47,197 nucleotides of DNA, from positions 1 to 47,197 of the IMG/VR virus record IMGVR_UViG_3300037327_000024, one strand, 5' to 3'. The notes under the pieces are model-generated. The model ran no database searches. It was not told the DNA's origin and saw only the letters and a list, made by a program, of their open reading frames with translations. The DNA is from a virus. Position numbers and translations under genes: made by a program. Below, piece after piece: positions 3,327-42,075 of this stretch. Every line of letters starts with the position of its first letter. The first letter of the stretch is position 1.

Positions 3327-3506
3327 ATGAGAGAGATACTAGAGATGTATGGTTACAACGAGTTTGAATCCAAGGTGTACCTTGAAGATGGAAACCACAG
3401 CATAAATGTACAGGGGGCAGGTTCTTACTTAGAAAGCCTAATACAAGGGACAGATAGCGGAGGATTGTATGAGAATGGCTTTATAGGGGCTTCTATGGGA
3501 GCCTGA
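3327..3506 (+). CDS. hypothetical protein (59 aa)
   Basis: First gene of the rightward operon. The start ATG 3327 (MREILEMYGYNEFESKVYLE) is chosen because AGGAGAAGTT lies directly before it. The C-terminal half is Gly- and Ser-rich. No family is recognised. Position right behind a strong promoter suggests early, high expression, as is usual for small host-takeover proteins; that role is only inference. Confidence 0.6.
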   Translation: MREILEMYGYNEFESKVYLEDGNHSINVQGAGSYLESLIQGTDSGGLYENGFIGASMGA

Positions 3507-3586
3507 GAGAGCTTCAAATGTAAAAGTAATACCACCGCATAGATATACATTAATAATGCCTTAGAGAGGCTTATAGGAGAATAAGA

Positions 3587-4873
3587 ATGAGTAACTACCA
3601 AGCAATGATAGCAAAAGTAAATCAAGTCTTAGAGTTAAAAGGGGCAGATAAGATACAGGTAGGAAAAGTTTTAGGGGAGACTGTGATTATTGGTAAGGAG
3701 ATACAAGTCGGAACTGTGGGAGTGTTCTTTTGTTCAGGTACTCAACTTTCAGAGCAGTATTGTAAACAAAATAATTTGTTTAGATCCAAAGAAGATAACC
3801 TTGATCAATTAAAATCTGGATTCTTTGAGTTCTCTCGTAGGGTTAGAGTTCAGCCTTTTATGAAAGTTAAGTCAGAGGGTTATTTCGCCCCCCTAGAGTC
3901 TTTAGGCTACACAGGTCATGATTTAAAAAAGCTTAAAGTAGGAGATACCTTTGAGTCTTTAGGAGATAACCCTATCTGCAAGAAGTATGTTAACCCTAAT
4001 GTTAAAGACCCTAGTAAGAAGAACTCTAAAAAGAAAAAATTAGATGTTCCTATGTTCGTAGAGCATTGTAATACCTCTCAGTATAGACACAACAAGAGTT
4101 TTATATCTAAAGGAGATTTAATTAGTATACAATCTAAAAAGCATGGAACATCCATGAGGGTTGGTAATCATAAAGTAAATATTAATTTAAATAAGATCAA
4201 AGTGCTTATAAATAAGATCCTTCCTATATTTCCAACTAGCCGATGGGATCTAGTAGTAGGCACTAGAAGAGTTATACTTAACAATTCGGACTCTGAAGGG
4301 TTTCATGGAAAAGAGGCTTACAGGTTTGAAATAGCAAATCAATTGTCTTCACACATTACAAAAGGGATGACAGTTTATGGAGAAATAGTAGGGTATGTAA
4401 ATGGCAAGTCCGTAATGTCTACTCATAACACAAAAGATCTTAAAGATAAGAAGTACACTGCTAAGTACTCTGATCAAATGAGTTACAAGTATGGATGCTT
4501 AGAAGATACTTACGATTACCACATCTATAGAATAACTATGGCATCCGAAGGAGGAGATATTGTAGACTTTACTCAACCTCAGCTTGTATCTTGGTGCAAA
4601 GATAGAAATATCAAACCCTCTCATGATCTTGTAGAGCCTTTTATCTACGATGGGGATATAGACACACTAGACACTTTAGTAGACTACCTTACAGAGCGTC
4701 CTGAACTGCTTACTGAAGACTACCACGACCCCAGCCATATTAGTGAGGGAATAGTTGTGAGAATAGATAACCATAGGCTTTCACCTACCTTCTTAAAAAG
4801 TAAAAGCTATGCTTTCAAGTTGTTAGAGGGTATAGTGTCTGAAACTGTTGTAGAAATAGAGGATGAAAGCTAA
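3587..4873 (+). CDS. RNA ligase, Rnl5/DRB0094-type
   Basis: ATP-dependent RNA ligase that would seal 3'-OH/5'-phosphate RNA ends, for example in tRNAs cut by host defence nucleases. The nucleotidyltransferase motif I KKHG with nucleophile K184 is visible (residues 184-187), followed by motif III near GMTVYGEIVGYVNG, motif IV EGIVVRI near the end, and a Lys-containing motif V. About 130 residues precede the catalytic domain and look like the N-terminal OB-type domain of Deinococcus DRB0094-like ligases. A His instead of Asp in KxDG is tolerated in that group. It starts a three-gene RNA-repair set with 4994 and 5689. Confidence 0.85.
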   Translation: MSNYQAMIAKVNQVLELKGADKIQVGKVLGETVIIGKEIQVGTVGVFFCSGTQLSEQYCKQNNLFRSKEDNLDQLKSGFFEFSRRVRVQPFMKVKSEGYFAPLESLGYTGHDLKKLKVGDTFESLGDNPICKKYVNPNVKDPSKKNSKKKKLDVPMFVEHCNTSQYRHNKSFISKGDLISIQSKKHGTSMRVGNHKVNINLNKIKVLINKILPIFPTSRWDLVVGTRRVILNNSDSEGFHGKEAYRFEIANQLSSHITKGMTVYGEIVGYVNGKSVMSTHNTKDLKDKKYTAKYSDQMSYKYGCLEDTYDYHIYRITMASEGGDIVDFTQPQLVSWCKDRNIKPSHDLVEPFIYDGDIDTLDTLVDYLTERPELLTEDYHDPSHISEGIVVRIDNHRLSPTFLKSKSYAFKLLEGIVSETVVEIEDES

Positions 4874-5004
4874 TGCTAGAAGATTACGAATTAGATATAG
4901 AGTATTGGCATACAGAGTACCAAGGTGACTTAGAGTTACACGAGTTTTTAGGGTTGTCTTGGTTAGAGTATAAATTTATGGTGGAGGTGTCAGGTGAACA
5001 TTAA
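4873..5004 (+). CDS. hypothetical protein (43 aa)
   Basis: A short frame starts within the stop of the RNA ligase gene (TAATG, ATG 4873) and overlaps the next gene by 11 bases. The product is very acidic and rich in Tyr, Trp and Leu (MLEDYELDIEYWHTEYQGDL). Its tight coupling between two RNA-repair genes suggests co-expression; function unknown. Confidence 0.5.
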   Translation: MLEDYELDIEYWHTEYQGDLELHEFLGLSWLEYKFMVEVSGEH

Positions 5005-5689
5005 GATAGATAAAGAAATGCACGAAGAACTTAATAAGCATGTCCTAGGGGATAACACCATAGAGTTTGGAAACCTTAATGGCAAGGATACGGACTTACT
5101 GCACATAGTTTGCCCTAACATACAGATGGATGCATGTATTCACAATAGGGATCATTTCTTATTCTATAAGTGTGAAGAGACTAATACAGACCACCTCTAC
5201 ATAACCCCTAGAGGGGCTGTCAATGCCTTGATCACTGGAAGTAATACTTTGATCTATGAGATACTTGTGGAAGGTAAGTTTAAGGGCACTTATCTAGAGT
5301 TCTTGCACAGCCTAAGGATAGAGCAGTTTCATACTTATAAGTTAGTTAAGGCTTTATTAGGAGTTGCTGAGAGAGATCTTAAACAGAGTAGGAGTCACAC
5401 AGATACTCAGAAGAAGTTGTTGTGGGTGAAAAACTATTACAGCATGGCTGTAGACATAATGAAAGATCATGGGATAACTGTAGGGATGGCAAGAAGGTTA
5501 GGTTCTCAAAGAGTTGGGTTGTTAGACCTAAAGTATGCTAGGATGAGATCACAAGGTCTTCCAAAGACGGTAGATGACTTTGTGTATATGTACTTGCAAG
5601 AACATCTTAATCTAGTAGGTGTATTGTATTTTCACAGTATAGAATATGTCTCTTACTATTACTTTAACAACTGGAAGGAGAGTTTATAA
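4994..5689 (+). CDS. RlaP-like (DNA polymerase beta superfamily) nucleotidyltransferase, divergent
   Basis: GTG start behind GGAGG. Residues 25-95 resemble the core of RNA-ligase-associated RlaP proteins: a loop with K-D-T-D where SDxD is usual, a hydrophobic strand, and a helix ending ALITGSNTLIYEIL that corresponds to the GNPxxIELLF segment. The usual GS motif in front of the DxD is changed to G-N-L-N, so activity may be lost or altered. RlaP genes are known to accompany RNA ligases and polynucleotide kinases, and this gene lies between exactly those two. Assignment rests on pattern and neighbourhood, so it is tentative. Confidence 0.55.
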   Translation: MNIKIDKEMHEELNKHVLGDNTIEFGNLNGKDTDLLHIVCPNIQMDACIHNRDHFLFYKCEETNTDHLYITPRGAVNALITGSNTLIYEILVEGKFKGTYLEFLHSLRIEQFHTYKLVKALLGVAERDLKQSRSHTDTQKKLLWVKNYYSMAVDIMKDHGITVGMARRLGSQRVGLLDLKYARMRSQGLPKTVDDFVYMYLQEHLNLVGVLYFHSIEYVSYYYFNNWKESL

Positions 5690-6603
5690 TGCAGAAAACT
5701 ACGCTAATATTAACAGTAGGAATTAGTGGCTCAGGAAAAACTTCTTGGGCAGAGGAGTTTACGCGAAATCGCGGAGATTGGGTCAATATTAATAGGGATG
5801 ACATAAGGTTCTCCTTGTTTAACAAGGGAGTGCGAGATTGGGGTGCTTATAAGTTTAAAAGGTCTAATGAAGACCTAGTATCAGACACTGCTATGAACTT
5901 AGCTAAGCTTTCTTCAAGAGCAGGTAAGAACATTATTATCTCAGACACTAACTTAAATCAAAAAGTCAGAAATATGTGGAGAGACTTTGCTAAGTCTTAT
6001 CATATGGAGTTTGAAGTCATAGATTTTGATATCTCTTGGGATAAAGCCGTTAAGAGAGAATCTCAACGAGCTGGAGGCGTAGGTATTAGCGTCCTGAGGA
6101 AGCAATGGGAAGCGTGGAACACCTACAGGGGACGTAAGGTGTATATTCCTGATGAAAGTTTGCCTAAGGCTTTTCTGGTAGATTTAGATGGTACAGTCGC
6201 GGAGAATACCTCAGGTCGAGGATGGTTTGATTGGGATCGTGTTGGAGAAGACTCTCCTAGAGAGCATGTAATCTCAATGGTGCATGGCCTTATCCAATCA
6301 GGACTAACTCCTGTGTTCTTGTCTGGAAGAGATGGCTCTTGTATAATTGAAACCTATGATTGGGTTATGAAGCATGTTATGGTGGACTACTTGCCAGAGA
6401 GAGGTGGACTTCACTTACTAATGAGAGAGCCTACAGATCAACGTAAGGACTCTGTGATCAAGGAAGAGATCTTCTGGAAGTACGTAGCTAATAGGTTTAA
6501 CATTGTGGCGTGTATAGATGATCGTCCTCAGATGATCAGGGCTTGGGAAGACTTAAAGATCCCTAATATTATTGCTGTAGGTAATCAGACTAAGGAGTTT
6601 TAG
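5689..6603 (+). CDS. pseT: polynucleotide 5'-kinase / 3'-phosphatase (T4 Pnkp-like)
   Basis: Bifunctional RNA end-healing enzyme. The N-terminal kinase has the P-loop GISGSGKT at residues 11-18 and the NRDDIR motif of T4 Pnkp-type kinases. The C-terminal phosphatase has the acylphosphatase motif DLDGT at residues 165-169 and the later FLSGRD and DDRPQM segments. Length 304 aa is close to T4 Pnkp (301 aa), with the same domain order. It would convert 2',3'-cyclic-phosphate and 5'-OH ends into ends the RNA ligase at 3587 can seal. ATG overlaps the previous stop. Confidence 0.92.
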   Translation: MQKTTLILTVGISGSGKTSWAEEFTRNRGDWVNINRDDIRFSLFNKGVRDWGAYKFKRSNEDLVSDTAMNLAKLSSRAGKNIIISDTNLNQKVRNMWRDFAKSYHMEFEVIDFDISWDKAVKRESQRAGGVGISVLRKQWEAWNTYRGRKVYIPDESLPKAFLVDLDGTVAENTSGRGWFDWDRVGEDSPREHVISMVHGLIQSGLTPVFLSGRDGSCIIETYDWVMKHVMVDYLPERGGLHLLMREPTDQRKDSVIKEEIFWKYVANRFNIVACIDDRPQMIRAWEDLKIPNIIAVGNQTKEF

Positions 6604-29698: not shown

Positions 29699-31510
29699 AT
29701 GGCAGAGCTATCCCACCATGAAGGATGCCCTAAGTGTATAGCTAAGGGCAAAGACAGGGGAAAAGATAACTTAGCAGTGTACGTTGACGAGAGCGCACAC
29801 TGTTTTTCCTGTTCTTATACAATACCATCTAAAGAGTGGTTAAAAGCTAATGGAGATAAGTCTAGAAGTAAGAGTTATCTAAATGAAGAAGAAGAAGAGG
29901 AGTTAGACGTAGGCGCTATGGCAGAAGATTTTAATTTATCTAATTGGAAGACTATTAGAAAGAAGTGTACACATAACCCTGAAGGCTGGAGAGGACTGAC
30001 TAAGGAGACTTGTCAGTTTTTTGACGTTATGCATGAGTATAACACATCATCAGGGGACTTAGTTAAGCAGTACTATCCTTGTACGAAGGCATACAGCATC
30101 TCAGGAGTGCGTTGGAGGTTTAAAGAACTCAATGACAAGGGTAAGAAGGATTATGGCTCTAGAGGCACTACAGGAGCTGCCTCAGACCTACATGGACAGT
30201 GGAAGTTTAAGAATAGTAACAGCAAGGTTGTAGTGATCACTGCTGGAGAGATTGATCAGATGTCAGGACACCAGATGTTTGAGCTAACTCGTAAGAAAGA
30301 CTACGAGGTTACTCCTATTGTGACTCCCACATCGGGAGAAGGCAGTTCAGCTAAACAGTTACAGGGTCAGTATGAGTGGTTAGATACATTCGAGAAGATC
30401 ATCCTGTGTTATGACAATGATGAGGCAGGACAAGCTGCGATAGTTAAGGCTGTAAAGGTGTTACCTCGCGGTAAAGTCTACGTTATGAAGCTAACCCTTA
30501 ATGACACTAATGATTACTTAATGGCTGGCAGAGAGAAAGAATGGATCAACGCTTTTTGGAAAGCAGAGAGATATATCCCAAGTGGAATACTAGGTAGTGG
30601 AGGCATAAGAGATAAGATGTTAGATTATGTAGTGATACCTAAAATAACATTACCTCCTTTTATGTATAAACTACAAGATTTAATGGCTGGAGGTATACCC
30701 TTAGGTGTTATAGTGGCTATGGGCAGTGCAAGTGGGACTGGTAAGACAACAATAGTAGATGAATGTAGCTATTATTGGTATTTTAATAGCCCTCATAAGC
30801 TAGGGGTGTTAACTTTAGAAGCGGACTCTGCCCAGTATGGGATTAATTTATTATCTAGACATATTGGTGAGAAGATAAACCTCATAGAGTCCCCAGAAGA
30901 CAAATTACTATTCTTAAATAGGCCAGAAGTTAAGAAAGCCTCCGATGAGTTGTTCTTAGATGAGAATGGTCAAGATAGGTTCTTTCTAGTGGAAGAGAGA
31001 GATGGGGATATTAATACAGTTATGGACCTTACAGAGAACTTGATTATAGCTTGTGACTGTAAGGTGATAGTGTTCGATCCTGTGAGTGATGTACTGGAGG
31101 GACTTAGCAACGAAGAGCAAGCTATGTTTTATAAGTGGATGAAAGGTATGGTTAAGGACTACACTGTAACTTTTATACTCATCTCCCATGTTAGGAAGAA
31201 CTCAGGGGGTCAGAAAGCTAATTCTACAGGGGCTGAATTGCATGAAGAAGACTTCTTTGGCAGCGGTAGTATATTTAAATCTTCCGCTTGTAATCTACTA
31301 TTCTCTAGAGATAAAGAAGCTGAGAATGAGTTTGAGAGGAATGTAACTAGAATGAAAGCTACTAAGATAAGGTGGACAGGTAGGACTTCTCCTATAGCAG
31401 GGGAGTATTACTACGATAATGCTACTCATACGATGTTCGACAAGCATAAGTGGTTAGAAGAGCACTCCTCAGATCCTAAAGATAAGAAATTTAGTATGAA
31501 AAAGGTATAG
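29699..31510 (+). CDS. T7 gp4-type primase-helicase
   Basis: Bifunctional replicative protein of 603 aa. The N-terminal zinc ribbon has C10, C13, C35 and C38; the TOPRIM region carries the Glu of TAGEID and the DxD of LCYDNDEAG. The C-terminal RecA-like helicase has Walker A GSASGTGKTT (K349), DPVSDVLE as Walker B-type strand, and LISHVRKN as the conserved His/Arg motif. Domain order and size match T7 gp4. It would unwind DNA ahead of the polymerase and make primers. The tail ends KKFSMKKV, sharing FSMK with two other replication proteins. RBS AGGAG. Confidence 0.95.
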   Translation: MAELSHHEGCPKCIAKGKDRGKDNLAVYVDESAHCFSCSYTIPSKEWLKANGDKSRSKSYLNEEEEEELDVGAMAEDFNLSNWKTIRKKCTHNPEGWRGLTKETCQFFDVMHEYNTSSGDLVKQYYPCTKAYSISGVRWRFKELNDKGKKDYGSRGTTGAASDLHGQWKFKNSNSKVVVITAGEIDQMSGHQMFELTRKKDYEVTPIVTPTSGEGSSAKQLQGQYEWLDTFEKIILCYDNDEAGQAAIVKAVKVLPRGKVYVMKLTLNDTNDYLMAGREKEWINAFWKAERYIPSGILGSGGIRDKMLDYVVIPKITLPPFMYKLQDLMAGGIPLGVIVAMGSASGTGKTTIVDECSYYWYFNSPHKLGVLTLEADSAQYGINLLSRHIGEKINLIESPEDKLLFLNRPEVKKASDELFLDENGQDRFFLVEERDGDINTVMDLTENLIIACDCKVIVFDPVSDVLEGLSNEEQAMFYKWMKGMVKDYTVTFILISHVRKNSGGQKANSTGAELHEEDFFGSGSIFKSSACNLLFSRDKEAENEFERNVTRMKATKIRWTGRTSPIAGEYYYDNATHTMFDKHKWLEEHSSDPKDKKFSMKKV

Positions 31511-31511
31511 T

Positions 31512-32084
31512 ATGAAAATGATATTTGGTAAAGGTACAAACGACTTAGAAGGAGAATCCTCCTCTATAGCCTACACTACTTGGCATAGTATGTTAAGGAG
31601 GTGCTACAGTGATCTATATCAAAAAAGAAAGCCCACTTATAAAGGTTGTAGTGTGAAAGAGGAATGGATGCTTTTTTCTGTATTTAAATTATGGTTTGAC
31701 AAAAACTATATGATAGGTTGGGCTTTAGATAAAGATATACTATTCCTATATAATAAGTTATACTCTGAGGGTACTTGCTGTTTTGTACCCGCAGGGTTAA
31801 ACACATTCTATAGTCATTTATATAGAGTCAAGAAAGATGGAAACCCTTTAGGGGTTTACTTTAAGAAAAGTAATAAAAAGTACGTAGCTCAAGCATCTCT
31901 GATAACTCCCGACGGGAAGAGAGGCTCAGGACACCTACTTATTTCTGAATCCCTTGAAGATTGTGTTAAGGTCTATAAAGAGCATAAAAAGAAGGCTTTA
32001 CTTGAGATGGCAGACTCCTATAAGTCGGTCTTAAAACCTGAGGTCTACAACGCCCTAGTTAATTTTAAATGGGAGGTCTTATGA
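31512..32084 (+). CDS. putative homing endonuclease-like protein with AP2 domain
   Basis: Residues 17-100 carry the AYTTWxxMxRRC, SVKEEW, LDKDIL and TCCFVP pattern shared with the gene at 17369. Residues 115-165 (NPLGVYFKKSNKKYVAQASL onward) form an AP2 DNA-binding domain, as in phage homing endonucleases. It sits between primase-helicase and polymerase, overlapping the latter by 4 bases. No HNH catalytic triad is visible, so cleavage is unproven. Confidence 0.7.
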   Translation: MKMIFGKGTNDLEGESSSIAYTTWHSMLRRCYSDLYQKRKPTYKGCSVKEEWMLFSVFKLWFDKNYMIGWALDKDILFLYNKLYSEGTCCFVPAGLNTFYSHLYRVKKDGNPLGVYFKKSNKKYVAQASLITPDGKRGSGHLLISESLEDCVKVYKEHKKKALLEMADSYKSVLKPEVYNALVNFKWEVL

Positions 32085-33688
32085 AGTCAATAACAAATTT
32101 CCGTAAAGCAACTATAGCGGATGTGGAGGCTAATGGTTTAGACAATGCCACAAAGATACATATTCTATCTTGCACTATGGATGGCAACAAAAAGCACAAC
32201 ACTAGGGGTTCAAACCACGAGAAGCTAAGGCAGTTTCTTAATTACCACATTAAGAATAAGATACCCGTTGTTATGCACAATGGTATTTGCTATGACGTAC
32301 CTCTCTTAAGTAGGTTGTTAGACATTGACCTGTCAGAGTTAATGGTTATAGATAGCCTAGCCCTTAGTTGGTATTTAAACACTGACAGAAAGGTGCATGG
32401 CTTAGATAGCTTCTATGATGACTATGGTATCAAGAAGGTTGCTGTAGAGCAGGAGGACTGGGATTTTCAGAGTGAGTGCCCCGAAGAGTTAGAGGCACAC
32501 TATGAGCGCATGAGAGTACGCTGTGTAGTAGACGTAAAGATAAACAAGAGCCTCTGGGAAGACCTCTTAGAGCGTTTAACTAATATGTATACTATCGTCA
32601 AGGAATCTGTAGATAATGGCTTGGTGGAAGGTACAAGGATGTCTGAGGATGAGGTCTGCTACATAGATCAGTACAAACAATCTTCTAGTGTAGATGACTA
32701 CATAGAGAGAATACTAACCTTTCTTATGTTTAAGATGGACTGCGCTAGACTACAAGAGAAAACTAAGTTTAAGTTAGATATACCTAAACTAGAGAAGCTA
32801 GAAGATAAATTAGAGGGACTGATACTGATAGCTAAGACAGAGTTGGAAGCAGCCCTACCTAAAGTGCCTAAGTATGCTGTCAGGAACTTCCCTAAAAAAC
32901 CTTTTAAGACTGATAGGACTTACTCTGTTTCTGGCCTTACATGGAATGCTCTAGTAGATAAGCTGGACACTGTAGATGAGTATGGCTTTGCTAAGGCTAT
33001 TATAGTGGATGATAAGTCTATCAAGGAGCTGATAGGCCATGACAGCCCTAAGATATCTTCTCCAGCTCAGATAAAGGATTGGTTATTCAGTCATGGATGG
33101 AAGCCTAAGACATTTAAGTTTGTTAAAGATAAGAAAGCTCAACAGATCTGGGTGGACAGTGGCTTTAGGAAAGAGCTTAAGCCTAAGCCTAGAGCTGTAC
33201 CTCAGATCAATCAAGAGAAAGACACAGGTAAAGAGCTTTGTGACAGCGTTGTAGAGCTTGCTAGTAGAATACCTGAGATCATGGCTTACTCTAAGTACAC
33301 TCTTATTAAGCATCGTTATGACATTGTTAAAGGGTTTAGAAGGGATATGTCTCCCGATGGCTATGTTAAGGCCCGTATAGGTGGATTTACTAACACCCTA
33401 AGAGTTAAGCATAGACAGTTAGTTAACCTGCCAGCTATTAATAAAGAGTACGGAGAGGACATAAGAGGGCTGCTTATAGCTGGCGAGAGTAGAACCTTGC
33501 TAGGTAGTGACTTAAGTGGTCTAGAAGATAGGACTAAACACCACTTTATGTTGCCACATGATCCAGAGTATGTACAAACTATGATGTCTCCAGATTATGA
33601 TGCTCACCTAGATATTTGTGTAACTAATGGAACAGTAACTGAAGAGGAGGTTAGATTTTACAAATGGTACAAGACGCAAAGCAAATGA
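32081..33688 (+). CDS. DNA polymerase family A, N-terminal part (exonuclease to motif A)
   Basis: First piece of a T7-like replicative polymerase, 535 aa. Exo I is DVEANGLD (D14, E16), then the exo II-like HNGICYDVPLL and a C-terminal exo III region RCVVDVKIN. Palm motif A is SDLSGLEDR with D477. The chain ends shortly after EEEVRFYKWYK, before the O-helix. The missing motifs B and C are in the gene at 34142. Start ATG 32081 chosen for GGGAGGT; an upstream in-frame start at 32069 is less likely. The two pieces would have to associate to make an active enzyme. Confidence 0.92.
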   Translation: MKSITNFRKATIADVEANGLDNATKIHILSCTMDGNKKHNTRGSNHEKLRQFLNYHIKNKIPVVMHNGICYDVPLLSRLLDIDLSELMVIDSLALSWYLNTDRKVHGLDSFYDDYGIKKVAVEQEDWDFQSECPEELEAHYERMRVRCVVDVKINKSLWEDLLERLTNMYTIVKESVDNGLVEGTRMSEDEVCYIDQYKQSSSVDDYIERILTFLMFKMDCARLQEKTKFKLDIPKLEKLEDKLEGLILIAKTELEAALPKVPKYAVRNFPKKPFKTDRTYSVSGLTWNALVDKLDTVDEYGFAKAIIVDDKSIKELIGHDSPKISSPAQIKDWLFSHGWKPKTFKFVKDKKAQQIWVDSGFRKELKPKPRAVPQINQEKDTGKELCDSVVELASRIPEIMAYSKYTLIKHRYDIVKGFRRDMSPDGYVKARIGGFTNTLRVKHRQLVNLPAINKEYGEDIRGLLIAGESRTLLGSDLSGLEDRTKHHFMLPHDPEYVQTMMSPDYDAHLDICVTNGTVTEEEVRFYKWYKTQSK

Positions 33689-34158
33689 GCTTAGAGGATC
33701 TTTATGAGGAATGTCATAAGAGGTTTAAGTATGTGAATGGGGTACTTTACTTTAAGGGAAATACACACAGTAAGAATAGGAGAGGGGAATCTCCCTCAAG
33801 TGTGAATAATTGTGGCTATTTATTCGTCACAGTTAACTATAAGAGTTACCTAGTTCACCGACTTATATACCTTATGGAACATAAGACTCTCCCAGAGCTA
33901 CTTGACCACATAGACAGGAATAAACAAAACAACAAGGTCGGCAATTTAAGAGCTGCAAATAGGGAGGTGAACTCTTGGAATAGAGATAAACAACAGAATA
34001 ACTCCTCAGGGTATAGGGGAGTTAGTTGGGGGAAGCAGAATAAGAAATGGCACAGCTATATCACAATTAAAGGTAAGAGAGTCAACTTAGGATATTTTAG
34101 GTGTGTCCATGAAGCAGGTAGAGTCGCAGAGGAGGCTAAAAGTGAAATTAAGTTTTGA
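33685..34158 (+). CDS. HNH homing endonuclease with AP2 domain, inserted in the polymerase gene
   Basis: HNH_3 motif: LVHRLIYLMEHKTLPELLDH followed by IDRNKQNNKVGNLR, with the His-Asn-His-type core. The C-terminal AP2 domain is SGYRGVSWGKQNKKWHSYIT then KRVNLGYF. ATG 33685 overlaps the polymerase stop (ATGA); a start at 33664 with distant GAGGAGG is possible. It lies exactly where the polymerase is broken, so it probably targets the intact polymerase gene of related phages between motifs A and B. Confidence 0.9.
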   Translation: MSLEDLYEECHKRFKYVNGVLYFKGNTHSKNRRGESPSSVNNCGYLFVTVNYKSYLVHRLIYLMEHKTLPELLDHIDRNKQNNKVGNLRAANREVNSWNRDKQQNNSSGYRGVSWGKQNKKWHSYITIKGKRVNLGYFRCVHEAGRVAEEAKSEIKF

Positions 34159-34735
34159 AGAGATGAAGGGCTTAAACCCTAAAGACCAGATGGAAATAAT
34201 AGAGAGACTTTCAGGTTTAAGATCACAAGGAAAGTCCACCAACTACAGTTCAGTGTATAACATAGGGGCTGATGCACTTTCAAGAGATTTAGACGTTGCT
34301 GTGAGAGTTGCTAAGGCACTCCTAGAGGGGTATTGGCAGTTAAACTGGAGTGTAAAGACTATAGCAGAGGAGCAGTTTGTCTTCCAAGATGACTACGGCA
34401 ATAACTGGTTAGTAAATCCTATCAATGGGTTCTGTTATTCTCTAAGAAAAGACTCGGATAGGTTCAGTACATTATGTCAGGGTACAGGATCATTCTTTTT
34501 CGATATGTGGGTTGACATCATATTGACGGAAATGTACACTCTTTGGGGTCGGAAGTCATTAAGTGCATCTTTTCATGACGAAATAGTATTAGCATTTAAA
34601 GATAGCCCTAAGTTAAGAAAGATATTTAGTGAATTAGTTTTAAAAGCTATTGACACAGTAAACAAGAAGTATATACTTAGGAGAGATTTAGGGGCTGATG
34701 TTCAGTTTGGCAACAGTTACGCAGAGATACACTAG
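34142..34735 (+). CDS. DNA polymerase family A, C-terminal part (motifs B and C)
   Basis: Second piece of the split polymerase, 197 aa. GTG 34142 is preceded by GGAGG with six bases spacing, inside the end of the HNH gene. The O-helix motif B is KSTNYSSVYNIGADALS (K31) and motif C is ASFHDEIV (H145-D146-E147). Together with 32081-33688 it gives all catalytic motifs in order, with nothing essential visibly lost. A separate ribosome-binding site shows it can be translated on its own; intron splicing is not needed to explain it. Confidence 0.9.
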   Translation: MKLSFEEMKGLNPKDQMEIIERLSGLRSQGKSTNYSSVYNIGADALSRDLDVAVRVAKALLEGYWQLNWSVKTIAEEQFVFQDDYGNNWLVNPINGFCYSLRKDSDRFSTLCQGTGSFFFDMWVDIILTEMYTLWGRKSLSASFHDEIVLAFKDSPKLRKIFSELVLKAIDTVNKKYILRRDLGADVQFGNSYAEIH

Positions 34736-34746
34736 GGGGAGAATGT

Positions 34747-35313
34747 ATGAGAAAGTTATTTATAGACCAAAAAGGCCTTTGTCGTTCGGATAGAACCAAA
34801 ATCGCCAATACTTTACGTAAGTTAGGGGCTAATTGGTATAACGGCACTACCCATAGCCTACACCTAGGCAAGAATTTTATATACTTAATAGGTGATGAGC
34901 TTACTTGGTCATCAACTAGAGTGGCTGAATTAGAAAGTTATACAGAAGTAACCTTAAAAGAACTATTGGAGATGACGATGCAAGAGGATCAGATAAAACT
35001 AACTAACTTTGTAACTATTACACTAACTTACGGAGAGCTTTTAAGAGCTGGAGTTGTAGGTGCAAGAACTAATGGCAACAGACGAGGAAAAAGCGTATAC
35101 CAAATAGCTCTAGATACTTTTGGAAGGGATATTATAGACCCTTGTGTCGCTAAATATTGCGCTAATAGTCAAGATTACTCAAGTTCTCAGTTAGAGTGTG
35201 AAGCTATAGCTTTCTCTCCTAAGCTGTCTGAAAAAGAAATTCAAATGAATGCTTTACAACAGAAAATTACTGAGCTACAATCAACTTACGATAACTTAAA
35301 GGACACTTTATAA
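34747..35313 (+). CDS. hypothetical protein (188 aa)
   Basis: ATG 34747 behind GGGGGAGAATGT. N-terminal part (MRKLFIDQKGLCRSDRTKIA) looks like a small alpha/beta domain; the middle helix-rich; the end is a coiled coil (LQQKITELQSTYDNLKD). No family recognised. Confidence 0.6.
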   Translation: MRKLFIDQKGLCRSDRTKIANTLRKLGANWYNGTTHSLHLGKNFIYLIGDELTWSSTRVAELESYTEVTLKELLEMTMQEDQIKLTNFVTITLTYGELLRAGVVGARTNGNRRGKSVYQIALDTFGRDIIDPCVAKYCANSQDYSSSQLECEAIAFSPKLSEKEIQMNALQQKITELQSTYDNLKDTL

Positions 35314-35765
35314 TGAGAGTTAAGCAACCTGAGACAGCTATACGTCAGTTAGAGGCTCTAATAGTTACTGCCACTAATGCAAAACTATCAGAGAGCATTT
35401 TAGATATGACTGCATGGAAAACAATACATGAATGTGGTTACGCAGCCTGCCTGATTGGATACCAAAGTTTGTCAAAGAACTTAAAAGAGTTCCCTTGCGC
35501 GGATGCTAGTGATTATACCACTACTAGGGATATGTGCGAGACTATAACTGATGACTTAGATGCGTCTTTAGGGTATGCCTTGTCAAGGTCTATATGGGAA
35601 GGGGGAGACAGAGAAGGTTATGCTGAGTGTTCAGGTATGTTTAGTATAGAGGAGATCAGCACATTTTCACACCTACGAAAAGGCAGCACTAGCTTTGACT
35701 CTGCTATATACTATATGTCGGCTATTATAGCTAAAATTAAAACTCAAAAAGGGGGTAGAATCTAA
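35313..35765 (+). CDS. hypothetical protein (150 aa), paralogue of the next gene
   Basis: Shares about one third of its residues by eye with the protein at 35765, with the common core W-x-TIH-x-CG-x-AACL-x-GYQ-x-LS. Such Cys/His motifs occur in a widespread phage hypothetical family. TAATG overlap upstream. Tandem duplication; function unknown. Confidence 0.65.
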   Translation: MRVKQPETAIRQLEALIVTATNAKLSESILDMTAWKTIHECGYAACLIGYQSLSKNLKEFPCADASDYTTTRDMCETITDDLDASLGYALSRSIWEGGDREGYAECSGMFSIEEISTFSHLRKGSTSFDSAIYYMSAIIAKIKTQKGGRI

Positions 35766-36229
35766 TGGCATTACGTGATAATATTAAGTCTGTAGAAATG
35801 TTAGAAGCTTTGATATTAACAGCTACAGAAGCTAAAGAACAAGAAAAAAATCTAAATATGGGCAGATGGGTTACTATCCATACCTGTGGAAAGGCAGCTT
35901 GTCTAGTTGGGTATCAGGCGTTATCAAAAAGGTTAAGTCTTTTTGCTCATGCTACTATGACCTCTAATGGGCCAAGAGGAAATGATGTGCATGAGATATC
36001 TTCAGAATTGGCTACAGATGTGGAGGACTGTTTAGGTTACGAATTGGCAAACTCTATCTATGAAGCGAACGATAGAAGAGAGTTTGCAGAAAATTCTGAG
36101 TTATTTTCTGCAAAAGAGCTTGACTCCTTTGATCACTTAGGGGAAGATACAAACTTGGAAGCAGCTATAGACTACATGCAAGCTATAGTTGTTAAGATTA
36201 AAAACAACGAACAAGGAGAAGCAATATGA
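35765..36229 (+). CDS. hypothetical protein (154 aa), paralogue of the previous gene
   Basis: Core GRWVTIHTCGKAACLVGYQA matches the neighbour. Starts one base into the stop of that gene. Acidic C-terminal half. Likely arose by tandem duplication and then diverged. Confidence 0.65.
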   Translation: MALRDNIKSVEMLEALILTATEAKEQEKNLNMGRWVTIHTCGKAACLVGYQALSKRLSLFAHATMTSNGPRGNDVHEISSELATDVEDCLGYELANSIYEANDRREFAENSELFSAKELDSFDHLGEDTNLEAAIDYMQAIVVKIKNNEQGEAI

Positions 36230-36426
36230 CGAACACTAATGGGTTAAACTTTCAGACTTTAAAGATTAAGGCTGAGGACAATCAGGTAGGTAATCTAACA
36301 CACTGGAGAGCTTTAAAGAATCCAGATGCAAAGAAAGATAAGATATTAGAGGGTCTTAGTTTTATAGAAGCTTTTATACATAGAGGCATTACAGTTCAAG
36401 TACGTAAAATCAGTCAGGGGTACTAG
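36226..36426 (+). CDS. hypothetical protein (66 aa)
   Basis: ATGA-coupled. Basic (MTNTNGLNFQTLKIKAEDNQ), no motif. The following 72 bases up to the SSB-like gene are non-coding. Confidence 0.5.
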   Translation: MTNTNGLNFQTLKIKAEDNQVGNLTHWRALKNPDAKKDKILEGLSFIEAFIHRGITVQVRKISQGY

Positions 36427-36498
36427 AGTATTAACTTACCAGCCATTTCTATCAGCACACTAACAAACCAGCTTAAGTAACTAGGAGATATAAACAGT

Positions 36499-37434
36499 AT
36501 GAGTAAATTTAGCATGAAGGCAAGTAAAGGTACATCTACAGGTTCATCAGACGTAGATTGGGTAGCATTTAACAAGCACTTACAAGAGGTACTTGGAGAA
36601 GAAGAGCAGCAAGTGGCAATCTTGTCAGGCATCATTGATGTAGGTATACAGTACCGTGAAGACCTAACTGTAGCCTATGAAGGAAAAGAGATACAAGAAA
36701 AAGCTCTTGAAGAAGGTCGCGCCACCCTTAGCGAAGACGAGTCTAAACTAACCATTCAAATGTCTCCTGTAGGTCAGGTAGTCCTTATAGCAGACTTCCC
36801 AGACCTTATGGTTAACTACGGAAAGTACTTCGCTGGTGAAGACGAGTTTAAACCTTATCGAACCTTGGTTGGCGGTTCTTGGGAAGGTATTGCCAAAGGC
36901 ATTAACATGAACAGCAAGAAGATTAATGGAGTGTGGCAGTTTGATCCTAAGTCTACTATCAGTAAGCTTGCTAAGTTTTGTGATGGAGTCTCTGGAGCTG
37001 TACCTCAAGACTATGACATCGGTAACTTGCTAGGAGAGGCATTCGCTATGGATGTAGGCGTTAAAGATGTAGATGGTAAACTCTATGTCAACGCTAAAAA
37101 TGTAAATCGTAAGCATAAGATGGTAGAAGTACCTGAGCATAATATTGAGCCATTTGGTATTAGTTTTGGTGGTGGTAATGACCCTAAAGATCTGTTTAAC
37201 ATCAATGGTCAAGTGTACAAACTTCTTGAGAAGGCTGTAGGTTGGAATGAGTCAGGCCTTAAGAAAGAGTTAGATGCGTACCAAGCAGAGAAAGAGGCTG
37301 CTAAAGAAGATAAGGACACCCCTAAGGAAGCTCCTAAGAAGTCAGCCCCTGTTAAGAAGGCAGCCCCAAAGAAAGCAGCTAAGGCAGCAGAGCCAGAGCC
37401 TGAAGAAGACGAAGAAGATGATTGTCCTTTCTAG
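36499..37434 (+). CDS. SSB-like replication protein with acidic DDCPF tail
   Basis: 311 aa. A folded core of about 240 residues is followed by a Lys/Ala/Pro-rich linker and a tail EPEPEEDEEDDCPF. That end closely resembles the DDDIPF tip that bacterial SSBs use to recruit partners. Location between polymerase and exonuclease fits a single-stranded DNA-binding protein of the T7 gp2.5 functional type, though the core has no OB-fold motif I can certify. N-terminus MSKFSMKAS carries the FSMK motif. RBS TAGGAG; a terminator follows. Confidence 0.7.
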   Translation: MSKFSMKASKGTSTGSSDVDWVAFNKHLQEVLGEEEQQVAILSGIIDVGIQYREDLTVAYEGKEIQEKALEEGRATLSEDESKLTIQMSPVGQVVLIADFPDLMVNYGKYFAGEDEFKPYRTLVGGSWEGIAKGINMNSKKINGVWQFDPKSTISKLAKFCDGVSGAVPQDYDIGNLLGEAFAMDVGVKDVDGKLYVNAKNVNRKHKMVEVPEHNIEPFGISFGGGNDPKDLFNINGQVYKLLEKAVGWNESGLKKELDAYQAEKEAAKEDKDTPKEAPKKSAPVKKAAPKKAAKAAEPEPEEDEEDDCPF

Positions 37435-37456
37435 TTAAGGCGAGTAATACATAACT

Positions 37457-37485
37457 CTAGAGCAAGGAAGCTCTAGTAACTTTTT
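37457..37485 (+). terminator. rho-independent terminator behind the SSB-like gene
   Basis: CTAGAGC (37457-37463), loop AAGGAA, GCTCTAG (37470-37476), then TTTTT at 37481-37485. It probably gives the abundant SSB-like message a defined end with partial read-through. Confidence 0.8.
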
Positions 37486-37509
37486 AATAAATATTAGTAG
37501 GAGTAACCA

Positions 37510-37773
37510 ATGTTACCACAAACCCAAGAACACCGTCAGAAGCTTAACCGTTATATTTCAGAGTGCGTTGCTATAATGAGAGAGAAAGATTTACTTGATG
37601 AGAGCATTAAGGACACTAAGGACTTAGTTAAAGAAGAGCTTGACATGATATCTGCTAAAGAGTTCTCAGGCTTAGTCAAAGTGGCGTATGACCAATCTAA
37701 AGTAGAAACTGAGATTGAAGAGCGCCAAACAGCAATTAGTAATGTTCAAATACTACTAGGCAAGGGAGAGTAA
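37510..37773 (+). CDS. hypothetical coiled-coil protein (87 aa)
   Basis: Behind TAGGAGTAACCA. Almost entirely charged helix (DLVKEELDMISAKEFSGLVK, ETEIEERQTAISNVQILLGK). Lies between SSB-like protein and exonuclease; function unknown. Confidence 0.65.
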   Translation: MLPQTQEHRQKLNRYISECVAIMREKDLLDESIKDTKDLVKEELDMISAKEFSGLVKVAYDQSKVETEIEERQTAISNVQILLGKGE

Positions 37774-37775
37774 TT

Positions 37776-37973
37776 ATGATGGGTAATAAGAAGACAGTAG
37801 CTACAGTTAAGAGTCAGTTCACAGTTATGGTAGAAGACCTCAAAGGGATTATTAAGTTAGAAACTGTTAAGAAGGTTAAAGCAGAAGCTGAAGTAGTGAG
37901 ATCTTCCGCTGAGATTGAAGAGGCAGAGTCTTTTAGCACAAAACTTAATGAATGGTTAGGTAAGAAACCTTAG
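37776..37973 (+). CDS. hypothetical coiled-coil protein (65 aa)
   Basis: ATG 37776 or 37779 after GGGAGAGTAATT. Helical and charged, similar in style to its upstream neighbour, perhaps a distant paralogue (both pair a Lys-rich helix with a final L-x-K-x tail). Unknown. Confidence 0.6.
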   Translation: MMGNKKTVATVKSQFTVMVEDLKGIIKLETVKKVKAEAEVVRSSAEIEEAESFSTKLNEWLGKKP

Positions 37974-37981
37974 GAGATATT

Positions 37982-39046
37982 ATGGCAGGTTTTAGTATGA
38001 AGGCGAAGCTAGGGGCTGTTGATACCAGCCCCGATGCTTTCGAGCTAGACGGAGACCCAGACATTATCGCAGTGTTTGATGCTGATGAGATAGCATTTAT
38101 TGTAGCAGCGGCTTGTGAACAACGTATGGTTAAGGTGACTAACTCTAGTAATAAAGCAGAGGGAGTGCTTAAGAATAGAACAGAGTTTAAGAAGTTAGTT
38201 GCAGGGCTAGAAATACCAGAAGACTTTTTCTCTTACGAAGATGTACAGATAGCAGAGCCTATTCAGAACGCCATAAGCACTATTAAGAAGCGTATTGCAA
38301 AGCAGGCTAAAAGAGTTAACGCTGGAGTGTACGAACTATACATTGGAGGAGTAGATAACTTTAGGGATTCCTTGCCCTTACCTACTAAGTATAAGTCTAA
38401 CCGTAAAGAGACAGTTAAGCCTTTACTACTTAAAGAGATTAGAAGCTACCTAATTGATTACAAAGGTGCCACTGTAATAGATGGTAGAGAAACAGATGAT
38501 AAAGTCACCAGTAGAATGTATGATGGTTTTAAGTCAGGACAAAAGATAGTGGCGATAACTCAAGATAAAGACGCAATGCAATCTAGTGGGTGGCTACTAA
38601 ACCCTAATAAAGAGGAACCAGCCGTTTTCATAAAAGGGTTAGGAAAACTCTACATTGACAACTCAGGTTCAAAACCTAAGGTTAGAGGGATAGGCAGAAA
38701 ATTCTTATATTTCCAGTGTCTGACAGGTGATGCTGTTGATGGATATAACCCTAGAGACTTAGTTTCCTTAGTGAAAGGTAAAAGACCTGTATTTGGGGAT
38801 ATGGCAGCCTACAAGCTCTTATTAGAAGCTAACTCAGACTTACAGTGCTTACAAGTTATAGTTAATACCTATAAAAAATGGTTTGGAGAGTTAGAGTTTA
38901 CCTACAACTGTTGGGAAGGTGTAACACATAAGATAACTTGGCTAGAGGCACTTCAAATGTATTGGGACTCCGCATATATGCAGAGGTTCGAGGGAGATAG
39001 AGTGGTAGTTAAAGAGTTATTAATGAAACTTAAGGTTGTTCTATGA
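37982..39046 (+). CDS. 5'-3' exonuclease / flap endonuclease (FEN-like, T7 gp6-type)
   Basis: 354 aa. The acidic clusters of the FEN family are visible: AVFDADEIAFIVAAA near residue 30, REIRS-type helix followed by VIDGRETDDKV near residue 165, VAITQDKDAM near residue 190, and the helix-hairpin-helix-like FQCLTGDAVDGY near residue 245. It would remove RNA primers and degrade host DNA. N-terminus MAGFSMKAK shares FSMK with the SSB-like protein. RBS TAGGAGATATT. Its end overlaps an HNH gene. Confidence 0.85.
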   Translation: MAGFSMKAKLGAVDTSPDAFELDGDPDIIAVFDADEIAFIVAAACEQRMVKVTNSSNKAEGVLKNRTEFKKLVAGLEIPEDFFSYEDVQIAEPIQNAISTIKKRIAKQAKRVNAGVYELYIGGVDNFRDSLPLPTKYKSNRKETVKPLLLKEIRSYLIDYKGATVIDGRETDDKVTSRMYDGFKSGQKIVAITQDKDAMQSSGWLLNPNKEEPAVFIKGLGKLYIDNSGSKPKVRGIGRKFLYFQCLTGDAVDGYNPRDLVSLVKGKRPVFGDMAAYKLLLEANSDLQCLQVIVNTYKKWFGELEFTYNCWEGVTHKITWLEALQMYWDSAYMQRFEGDRVVVKELLMKLKVVL

Positions 39047-39573
39047 CACCCTCTTCAAGAGCAGAGGCTAGAGCTATGGGAGCTAAGAGTTACTTCAACG
39101 GACAGCCTTGTTTTAATAGCCATGTAGCTCTTAGAAGGACGGATACTGGGTCTTGTATGGAGTGCAGGAAGATACAGTCTAAAAGGTGGAGAACTGTAGG
39201 TAGGGTTTCATCAGATGATTTAATAAGGGGTAAAGACCTGCCTAACTTAGAGCTGTTAAACAAACGGTTCATAGCAGATTTCCATAATGGTGTCCTATAT
39301 TGGAAAAGTATTAAAGAGTTTACAAAAGAAGATAAGATTTTTAATTCTTTACATTCTGGGGCTATTGTAGGACACTTAAACAAAACTACAAACTACACTG
39401 AGGTCAGATTAGAGAATAAACTATATAAACTTCATAGAATACTTTTTAAAATGTACCATAAACATGAGCCTACTATACTAGACCATATAGATAGAGACAG
39501 AAATAATAACTCTATAAGTAATCTAAGGGAGTGTACTGCGAAAGAAAACAGCCTGAATAGGGGTAGTAAATGA
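39043..39573 (+). CDS. HNH homing endonuclease with N-terminal zinc-finger-like motif
   Basis: ATGA overlap with the exonuclease gene. The N-terminal FNGQPCFNSHVALRRTDTGS then CMECRK holds C-x3-H and C-x2-C, the finger found in a set of phage HNH enzymes. The C-terminal HNH_3 motif is KLHRILFKMYHKHEPTILDH and IDRDRNNNSISNLR. Probably a free-standing homing gene that moved in behind the exonuclease. Complete, 176 aa. Confidence 0.85.
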   Translation: MTPSSRAEARAMGAKSYFNGQPCFNSHVALRRTDTGSCMECRKIQSKRWRTVGRVSSDDLIRGKDLPNLELLNKRFIADFHNGVLYWKSIKEFTKEDKIFNSLHSGAIVGHLNKTTNYTEVRLENKLYKLHRILFKMYHKHEPTILDHIDRDRNNNSISNLRECTAKENSLNRGSK

Positions 39574-40503: not shown

Positions 40504-41509
40504 AATAGTTTGGTTAGAAGAAGCAATAAAGTTAGATACTCTTGGCATGTCTTGGAGAAAGATATCTACGAAGTTAGGTATCCCTAAGTCCACTGTCAGT
40601 GATAACTTAAGGAAAGTCTTTAAAAATAAAACTAGGGAGGTCAAAGTTATTAATAAACCAGAGGTTAAGACTCTAGTACATGATATTGGAGTATACAAAA
40701 TAGAGACTGTCTTAGAAGTAGGCCCTAATGTAACTCATTTAATGATCCCAGATACCCAGTGTAAAGAAGGGGTGGATATGACTTACCTATCCCTCGTAGG
40801 GGAATATATCGCGGATAAGAAGCCTGAGGTTATAGTCCACATTGGAGACCACGCGGATATGCCATCTCTATCCTCTTATGATAGAGGTAAGAAATCAGCA
40901 GAAGGTCGTAGAGTAAAATCTGATATAGATGCTGCTATAGTAGGTATGAACCTATTACTTAAGCCTTTGTATGACTTACAGCAAGCAGAGTCCCTAGAAT
41001 ACGGAGAGGTGAGGTATAAACCTAAAATGGTCTTTACACTAGGCAACCATGAAGAGAGAATCATGAGACACGTTAATGCTAATCCTGAGTTAGGGGGTTT
41101 CATGAGCTATGACAACTTAAGGTATGGGGATATGGGATGGGAAGTCTATGATTACTTACAACCTGTAATAGTTAATGGAGTTAGTTATTGTCACTTTATG
41201 GCAAACCCAATGACAGGGAAGCCTTATGGAGGAGCTGCGCTTAATATCCTTAAGCAAGTGGGAGAGAGCTTCTGTATGGGACATAAGCAGACTCTAGATG
41301 TAGCTACTAGGTTCTTACCTTCAAGCGGTAAACAGCAATGGGCTATTATTGCGGGAGCATGTTACACTCATGATGAAGACTACAAAGGGTATCAAGGAAA
41401 CCACCATTGGAGAGGTATAGTTGTAAAACATAACACTAAGGAAGGTAGTTTTAATCCTATGTTTGTGAGCTTGGACTACCTAGAGCAAAGATATAGAGTT
41501 GGTTTGTGA
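40496..41509 (+). CDS. calcineurin-type metallophosphoesterase with N-terminal HTH
   Basis: 337 aa, TTG start after GGAG. Residues 5-40 form a helix-turn-helix (DTLGMSWRKISTKLGIPKST). The catalytic domain shows PDTQ, GDHADMPS, GNHEER and later a GxCYTHD-type His, the metal ligands of calcineurin-like phosphoesterases. Such fusions occur near replication genes in many phages. Substrate unknown; nucleic acid or cyclic nucleotide are possibilities. Confidence 0.85.
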   Translation: MSKIVWLEEAIKLDTLGMSWRKISTKLGIPKSTVSDNLRKVFKNKTREVKVINKPEVKTLVHDIGVYKIETVLEVGPNVTHLMIPDTQCKEGVDMTYLSLVGEYIADKKPEVIVHIGDHADMPSLSSYDRGKKSAEGRRVKSDIDAAIVGMNLLLKPLYDLQQAESLEYGEVRYKPKMVFTLGNHEERIMRHVNANPELGGFMSYDNLRYGDMGWEVYDYLQPVIVNGVSYCHFMANPMTGKPYGGAALNILKQVGESFCMGHKQTLDVATRFLPSSGKQQWAIIAGACYTHDEDYKGYQGNHHWRGIVVKHNTKEGSFNPMFVSLDYLEQRYRVGL

Positions 41510-42075
41510 GCTTAGAAGTATGGAAGGATGTCCTTGGATATGAAGGTTTCTATCAAGTCAGTGATAAAGGTAGGGTTAAAAGTGTTGATAGAAGGGTAGT
41601 TTACTCTAATGGGAGGGTCTATAACTACAGAGAGAAAACACTCAAGCCAGCCATAGATAAGGATGGGTATTGTGTTATTGGACTCTGCGTCAAACAAAAA
41701 ATAAAGGTTAAAAAAGTCCACAGGCTTGTAGCTGAGTGTTTTATAGATAACTTAGAGAATAAACCTCAGGTTAATCATAAAGATGGGATTAAGTGTAATA
41801 ATCATGTAGGTAACTTGGAGTGGTGTACTTGTTCTGAAAATCAGAGGCACTGTAATGATACAGGTTTGAGAGTGGCTGGAAAAGGGGATAAAGCCACCTC
41901 CAATAAGTTAACAGAGATTGACGTAGGGTTTATAAGGTTATGGATAAAATTAGGGCATAGTCAGAGAGAGATAGCTAAGATTTTTAAAGTACACTTCGCA
42001 ACTATCTCTTGTATCCACGTAGGTAAGAGTTGGGTAGAACTAGGAGAAACCTATGAAATACAGAGTACAAGTTAA
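41506..42075 (+). CDS. NUMOD4-HNH homing endonuclease
   Basis: GTG start overlaps the phosphoesterase stop. Domains in order: NUMOD4 (EVWKDVLGYEGFYQVSDKGR), HNH_3 (KVHRLVAECFIDNLENKPQV then NHKDGIKCNNHVGNLEW), and a C-terminal HTH (LGHSQREIAKIFKVHFATIS) for DNA recognition. 189 aa, complete. It sits directly behind the phosphoesterase, its likely protected or targeted gene. Confidence 0.9.
   Translation: MSLEVWKDVLGYEGFYQVSDKGRVKSVDRRVVYSNGRVYNYREKTLKPAIDKDGYCVIGLCVKQKIKVKKVHRLVAECFIDNLENKPQVNHKDGIKCNNHVGNLEWCTCSENQRHCNDTGLRVAGKGDKATSNKLTEIDVGFIRLWIKLGHSQREIAKIFKVHFATISCIHVGKSWVELGETYEIQSTS

Follow-up and report, generated by a model that had tools for sequence, protein, structure and literature searches.

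A short terminal peptide shared by three phage replication proteins and its possible role in docking on the SSB-like protein

The window considered here, from a marine phage, is the whole of a 47,197-base virus record from IMG/VR (IMGVR_UViG_3300037327_000024), and the element in question is the tetrapeptide FSMK, which stands near one end of three of its replication proteins: a primase-helicase, a protein resembling a single-stranded DNA-binding protein (SSB) and a 5' nuclease. A preliminary description, made from the sequence, had reported the motif near the C-terminus of the first and near the N-termini of the other two, and in no other protein of the window. Six-frame translation bore this out, as FSMK was found in only three open reading frames (ORFs) of more than 40 residues. 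The further remark that the motif always lies next to a lysine holds for the SSB-like protein and the primase-helicase, where Lys precedes Phe, but not for the nuclease, where Gly takes that place and the only Lys is the one within the motif. The three genes and their terminal features are as follows, with disorder given by the predicted local distance difference test (pLDDT) and the FSMK positions taken from six-frame translation.

29699-31510, + strand: primase-helicase, 603 residues, phrog_239 (DNA primase/helicase, E 1e-154), Toprim and AAA domains, with the C-terminal copy
31472-31507, + strand: primase C-terminal tail, residues 592-603, DPKDKKFSMKKV
31490-31501, + strand: FSMK in the primase-helicase, residues 598-601 of 603
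36499-37434, + strand: SSB-like protein, 311 residues, phrog_2544 (no assigned function in PHROGs)
36499-36546, + strand: SSB N-terminal tail, residues 1-16, MSKFSMKASKGTSTGS, pLDDT <50
36508-36519, + strand: FSMK in the SSB-like protein, residues 4-7 of 311
37396-37431, + strand: acidic C-terminal tip of the SSB, ending DEEDDCPF
37982-39046, + strand: 5' nuclease of FEN / T4 RNase H type, 354 residues, phrog_107
37982-38053, + strand: nuclease N-terminal extension (~24 residues) bearing the other N-terminal copy
37991-38002, + strand: FSMK in the nuclease, residues 4-7 of 354

Chance sharing of so short a motif was gauged on 95 selected genes of the window. Within ten residues of a protein end, four tetrapeptides (KELK, HKEL, EELR and FSMK) each recur in three or more proteins, against a mean of 0.1 in shuffled proteins, with none of 300 shuffles reaching four. 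When position was disregarded, 113 tetrapeptides were found in at least three proteins, compared with 70 in the shuffles. Sharing as such is therefore common and sharing at the ends rare, which indicates that it is the terminal position that carries the signal. FSMK was absent from all 3,200 other genes at 104 loci of the window phage and related phages, a background from which duplicated contigs and several near-copies of Pakpunavirus had been removed. A pattern for the N-terminal tags matched three of these genes and a pattern for the primase tag one; both were devised after the tags were known, making the counts a measure of specificity rather than a blind test.

Single-protein scans of IMG/VR for close relatives yielded one near twin only, the other relatives being reached through alignment queries, and a scan of GTDB genomes with the nuclease found no relative. 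The nearest named relative, judged by the SSB and the nuclease, is Alteromonas phage vB_AmeM_PT11-V22. Other relatives are referred to by locus label, L015, L027, L039 and L041 also being labelled G001, G002, G003 and G004, respectively. Those that bear the motif in a diverged form have proteins with ~36-45% identity to those of the window. In PT11-V22 the SSB begins MSKFKKKAKV, the nuclease has KKFTKKGKV (TTG start as annotated) and the primase tail has KKKFSKPKKP; the corresponding peptides are MSKFKKVAKV, MATFNKKAKV and KFTKKEKP in L027, and MAFKKKAKK, MSKFNKKGKA and, from the same record, KKKFTKPNSK in L041. The SSB and nuclease carry KFKKKAKV and KFTKKGKV in L015, and MAFNKKVVV and MAFSKRVKA in L039. 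Phe has given way to Tyr in both proteins of L038 (MAYSKKVEK and MGYSKKADK), whose short contig gave no primase match. Across these relatives the wider motif can be written approximately as [F/Y]-x-[K/M]-K plus additional Lys, FSMK being its local spelling. Met, which the preliminary description had singled out together with Phe for mutation, does not belong to the general motif and is thus no general hot spot.

A leave-one-genome-out profile ranked the SSB, nuclease and primase tails as the top three of 153 genes in PT11-V22 (third 12.7, fourth 8.3), of 154 genes in L041 (third 11.9, fourth 9.6) and of 152 genes in L027 (third 14.9, fourth 10.8). The same three tails led the 99 genes of the window by a thin margin (8.83 vs 8.76). 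The SSB came first and the nuclease second of 113 genes in L039, while on the eight-gene contig of L038 they came second and third after a Lys-rich stretch of the SSB C-terminal tail; in L015 they led, with the primase tail ranking below another gene. The expectation that orthologues would keep the terminal motif, and that it would be rare elsewhere, thus holds within the group of the window and PT11-V22. It fails for the wider family, as the distant Pseudomonas phages Pakpunavirus and Otagovirus have nucleases that lack the extension and primases that lack the tag, which limits any reading of it. To judge from these sequences, the peptide is a real, conserved and lineage-specific tag shared by three replication proteins.

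The SSB and nuclease copies also match each other within genomes. Among the ORF termini of a locus, the best match to the SSB N-terminal peptide is the nuclease N-terminus in L004, L015, L038, L039 and L041, and in the window and L002 the nuclease is second to the primase tail. When SSB and nuclease peptides from six lineages were re-paired, 8 of 720 arrangements scored as high over six residues and 2 of 720 over seven, and the addition of L043, L049 and L052 gave 224 of 362,880 for nine lineages, these lineages having been picked after the pairs were inspected and shared ancestry lying outside the model. Over six residues in the six lineages, the mean similarity of SSB and nuclease within a genome was 20.3, compared with 14.5 between the SSBs and 17.6 between the nucleases of different genomes. 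Identical SSB and nuclease tag residues use the same codon in 9 of 27 cases, where 12.6 would be expected; the near-duplicates L002, L014 and L015 were left out of both the permutation and the codon tests. As codon sharing is no higher than expected, the match appears to be kept at the protein level and not to reflect a DNA copy. In eight distant phages (L005, L006 and L008-L013, from the Pseudomonas, Pseudoalteromonas, Rheinheimera and Vibrio phages) a search of other gene ends with the SSB peptide brought up no partner in replication; the handful of high scores came from the overlapping SSB start and unrelated ORFs.

The window SSB belongs to PHROG 2544 (E 2.6e-48 over residues 6-311), and its model (mean pLDDT 78.6) has an ordered, strand-rich core between the N-terminal tail and a C-terminal tail, residues 274-309, also with pLDDT <50. 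The best solved-structure match was PrgE, an OB-fold protein that binds single-stranded DNA (Z 6.0, root-mean-square deviation 5.4, 116 residues aligned), and an SSB profile found no match among PDB sequences. The listed structural matches to the model do not include T4 gp32 or T7 gp2.5, which excludes neither. An aromatic residue lies within residues 2-6 of all 41 aligned SSBs, Phe in 40 of them, and SSBs of phages with an untagged nuclease and primase, such as Pakpunavirus and Otagovirus, have it too. At the other end, PF occurs in the last 12 residues of 37 of the 41, the other four having an extension after PF. In the SSBs of L042, L048, L064 and L114 the acidic PF tip is followed by the common ending [A/S]PIG[L/K]QEG[K/R][L/M]FLHMI.

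The nuclease model is of higher confidence (pLDDT 89.8), except for residues 1-18, which fall below 50. Foldseek matched it to T4 RNase H (2ihn, E 2.0e-5), T5 D15 and E. coli ExoIX, and residues invariant across 24 sequences include D33, D35, E170, D172, D173, D195 and D197. The protein is thus predicted to have the FEN / T4 RNase H fold together with its conserved acidic residues. An N-terminal extension of ~nine residues or more is found in 11 of the 24 aligned nucleases, and all 11 have F/Y at residue 3 or 4. The flexible terminus assumed in the preliminary description is therefore supported for the two N-terminal copies, both of which lie in tails predicted to be disordered.

The primase tail appears to persist while the domains before it change. 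The primase of the near relative L002 (3732-5540) is near-identical to that of the window as far as ~residue 289, falls to ~33-57% identity through the helicase domain, and yet ends DPKDKKFSMKK as in the window, with two synonymous changes. Similarly, the primases of L015 and PT11-V22 have 43% identity in the helicase part (residues 376-667) and tails that are nearly letter-for-letter identical. That primase tails outlast their domains is suggestive only, and recombination stopping before the tail would produce an identical pattern. In PT11-V22 and its kin ~30 more tail residues come after the primase copy. Exactly two ORFs, the SSB and the primase, end in an acidic NPF tip in PT11-V22, L041, L027 and the searched part of L015, and this tip is common only to these two proteins (primases L004 14223-16226, L028 9824-12805, L099 6805-9600 and L096 7955-9964). 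The primase tail of the PT11-V22 group thus combines an SSB-like basic-aromatic stretch with an SSB-like acidic tip. This tip constitutes another tag, different from the FSMK type, and the window primase does not have it.

Two of the primases are enlarged by insertions. The L015 protein (3482-6463, 993 residues) has an intein-like insert with Hint and LAGLIDADG domains from ~residue 377, in the helicase domain, and that of L027 (8636-11431, 931 residues) has an insert of ~270 residues in the Toprim region, with no Pfam Hint domain.

The tag is best read as a docking peptide. A docking peptide for a common partner had already been suggested, and its occurrence on unrelated folds, the retention of the terminal motif in diverged orthologues, the covariation of the SSB and nuclease copies and the predicted disorder of the N-terminal tails all speak for it. 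The partner then favoured, the split DNA polymerase, fits poorly, because it has been largely replaced between lineages that keep the tag: the polymerases of the window and the PT11-V22 clade can be aligned over only 94-303 residues, at 21-32% identity, and are far more diverged than the SSB and nuclease. We propose instead, with the scales about level, that the tag is a self-association peptide of the SSB, copied by the nuclease and the primase-helicase for docking on the SSB core. The SSB peptide, in which F or sometimes Y precedes Lys or Met and further Lys in a tail predicted to be disordered, would bind the core of a neighbouring SSB on single-stranded DNA. On a lagging strand coated with SSB, the copies on the nuclease and the primase-helicase would fit that same socket and could there affect primer removal and priming. 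The terminal tag on three proteins is plain from the translations; comparison of small samples indicates that it is conserved and that its SSB and nuclease copies change together at the protein level. The SSB core is suggested as the socket by the near-universal aromatic N-terminus of the SSB, by the replacement of the polymerase and by the analogy with T4 gp32. As the SSB copy is the most widespread, the first role of the tag was probably in the SSB, and this copy looks older. More tentatively, and with the balance leaning against it, mimicry of the SSB tails may amount to a recruitment code, in which the primase tail of the PT11-V22 group imitates both SSB tails and in which peptide and socket drift together as a private key of each lineage (FSMKA, F-x-KK-x-K, YSKK). 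The tags would then act as lineage-specific addresses even as the polymerase and the helicase domain are exchanged.

Replication enzymes are known to be brought together on a hub by short shared peptides, as with sliding clamps and the tips of bacterial SSBs. The bacterial tip, DFDDDIPF, is acidic and ends in PF; the window SSB family likewise has an acidic tip with PF. Here two enzymes carry the tag and so does the SSB itself, and the phage beta-clamp family PF00712 was not found in any of six records searched (a control matched in 10 of 14 genomes); a search for gp45-type clamps (PF02916) matched nowhere, controls included, and was thus uninformative. If the SSB core is the socket, then self-mimicry would be the code by which lagging-strand enzymes are recruited, and copies of the SSB N-terminal peptide at other gene ends would offer a handle on replisome partners in uncharacterised phages.

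In T4 gp32, cooperativity comes from a short basic peptide at the N-terminus, which binds the core of the adjacent gp32 (PMC12893549; this and the other PMC sources are cited from excerpts). Like gp32, the window SSB has a short basic N-terminal stretch together with a C-terminal tail of the protein-recruiting kind, and its basic peptide lies in a flexible N-terminal tail (residues 1-16) with the ordered core after it. The peptides themselves differ, as the LAST motif of gp32, (K/R)3(S/T)2, is matched by neither KFSMKAS of the window SSB, KFKKKAK of PT11-V22 nor AYSKKVE of L038, all of which have an aromatic residue and Lys. The nuclease and primase carry the terminal peptide here, whereas the excerpt on gp32 names no other T4 protein as carrying LAST (PMC12893549). 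Without its N-terminal peptide, gp32 has high affinity for T4 RNase H (PMC3012046), which like the window nuclease is a FEN-type 5' nuclease and which is helped by its SSB. In PrgE of plasmid pCF10, too, an N-terminal tail binds the neighbouring PrgE on single-stranded DNA (PMC11137577). PrgE is the best structural match to the window SSB, but a weak one, no sequence relation was found, and the excerpted account mentions no tag-sharing partners (PMC11137577).

The SSB core is a putative socket, one that could be wrong as readily as right, and a number of observations weigh against it. The structural matches to the SSB model are weak, since the OB-fold proteins PrgE (Z 6.0 and 5.8) and RPA (~3), although the best matches, all fall below Z 8 and no Foldseek match has an E-value <0.001. 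The C-terminal domain of T4 RNase H makes the contact with gp32, the N-terminal peptide of the enzyme binding the gp45 clamp (PMC3012046), whereas an N-terminal copy of the SSB peptide is proposed for the window nuclease. The tag is also unevenly kept: Leu replaces Phe in the L015 primase tail (KLTKPKKP), the L039 primase has no tag, and in L118-L121 the extended nuclease starts (MSFKP...) are unlike the different SSB type found in L119. In L027 the nuclease ties for second to fifth place as a match to the SSB peptide, with the primase tail outside the eight best. SSB and nuclease pair scores are 8 in L043, 4 in L049 and 0 in L052, compared with 16-24 in the six chosen lineages, and the nuclease ranks second in its locus in L043 and outside the eight best in L049 and L052. 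Furthermore, PT11-V22, L015, L027 and L041 are close kin and not independent trials, and the choice of lineages and their shared ancestry burden the re-pairing test.

The tag might bind the phage DNA polymerase and so gather the SSB, nuclease and primase there. All three bearers are expected to work with the polymerase at the fork, and the four genes are clustered in the window, PT11-V22, L015 and L027. In the window the polymerase does not belong to the tag bearers, and it lies outside the top tag bearers listed for PT11-V22 and L027, as a receptor should. T7 gp4 and gp2.5 are gathered on the polymerase through acidic tails, but the present tag is basic and aromatic, and it persists despite the polymerase divergence described above; we consider this explanation unlikely. 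Flexible basic tails often assist DNA binding, and it is quite unlikely, although the tags of PT11-V22 and its kin are Lys-rich, that the peptide is a mere basic-aromatic patch touching single-stranded DNA or RNA, its likeness arising from the composition of Lys-rich tails. The window motif proper holds only one or two Lys, the profile ranking sets these tails apart from ~150 other genes, and SSB and nuclease match each other within genomes more closely than orthologues match between genomes.

Recruitment of the host beta clamp by a peptide of the APIM kind appears distinctly unlikely. APIM, [RK]-[FWY]-[LIVA]-[LIVA]-[KR], is a short motif by which numerous proteins of replication and repair reach a common hub. 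Its variant RFSLK, which inhibits bacterial growth and belongs to a class of peptides for which binding to the beta clamp is reported, is near the KFSMK of the window (PMC7261172). The N-terminal clamp peptide of T4 RNase H speaks for the same idea, which, given that PF00712 is missing from the six records, would require the clamp of the host. However, no copy fits APIM, as the hydrophobic residues at positions 3 and 4 are absent, above all in the relatives (KFKKK, KFTKK, AFNKK, AYSKK), most of which have Lys at position 4, while the window has Ser and Met there (KFSMK, GFSMK) and its nuclease has Gly before Phe. A clamp peptide on an SSB would also be unusual. Alternatively, the peptide might be incidental, and the repeat either the product of a recent duplication of DNA or a nucleic-acid element, such as a translational operator placed close to start codons. 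The three window copies read TTTAG[C/T]ATGAA[G/A], with AGY for Ser throughout, two directly after start codons and the third directly before the next gene. This explanation is nonetheless very improbable, because the relatives keep the peptide with different codons and because in PT11-V22 and its kin the ~30-residue tail that follows the primase copy places it away from a start site. Mere coincidence in the window is scarcely credible: a four-residue match is weak on its own, and many tetrapeptides are shared when position is ignored, but other genomes have the diverged form at the three corresponding positions and FSMK is missing from the background genes, so that the orthologues refute it.

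Between and around the three genes lie the following further features, with HNH-like genes placed near the replication genes.

32069-33688 and 34103-34735, + strand: family A DNA polymerase in two pieces separated by an HNH ORF, phrog_17 for both
31512-32084, 33664-34158, 39043-39573 and 41506-42075: HNH-like genes, the last two named from sequence only

The HNH-like gene at 33664-34158 splits the polymerase pieces, and L002 has an intact polymerase homologue of 714 residues. An Rfam search of window positions 31300-34800 gave no match. An HNH gene directly follows the window primase and none follows that of L002; the uneven identity of the two primases may reflect co-conversion beside a homing endonuclease insertion. 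A small gene (~86-96 residues) lies between the SSB and the nuclease in the window (37510-37773), L004 (21088-21378), L038 (1713-1973), L039 (11168-11428) and L041 (1969-2247); the window copy matches phrog_639 (transcriptional regulator) and the L039 copy falls just short of the Pfam Phage_DsbA cut-off. Directly after the nuclease in L014 (3786-4079) and L015 (12872-13165) is a gene for a 97-residue protein that starts MSNYTKREV and may be a fourth bearer of the tag there.

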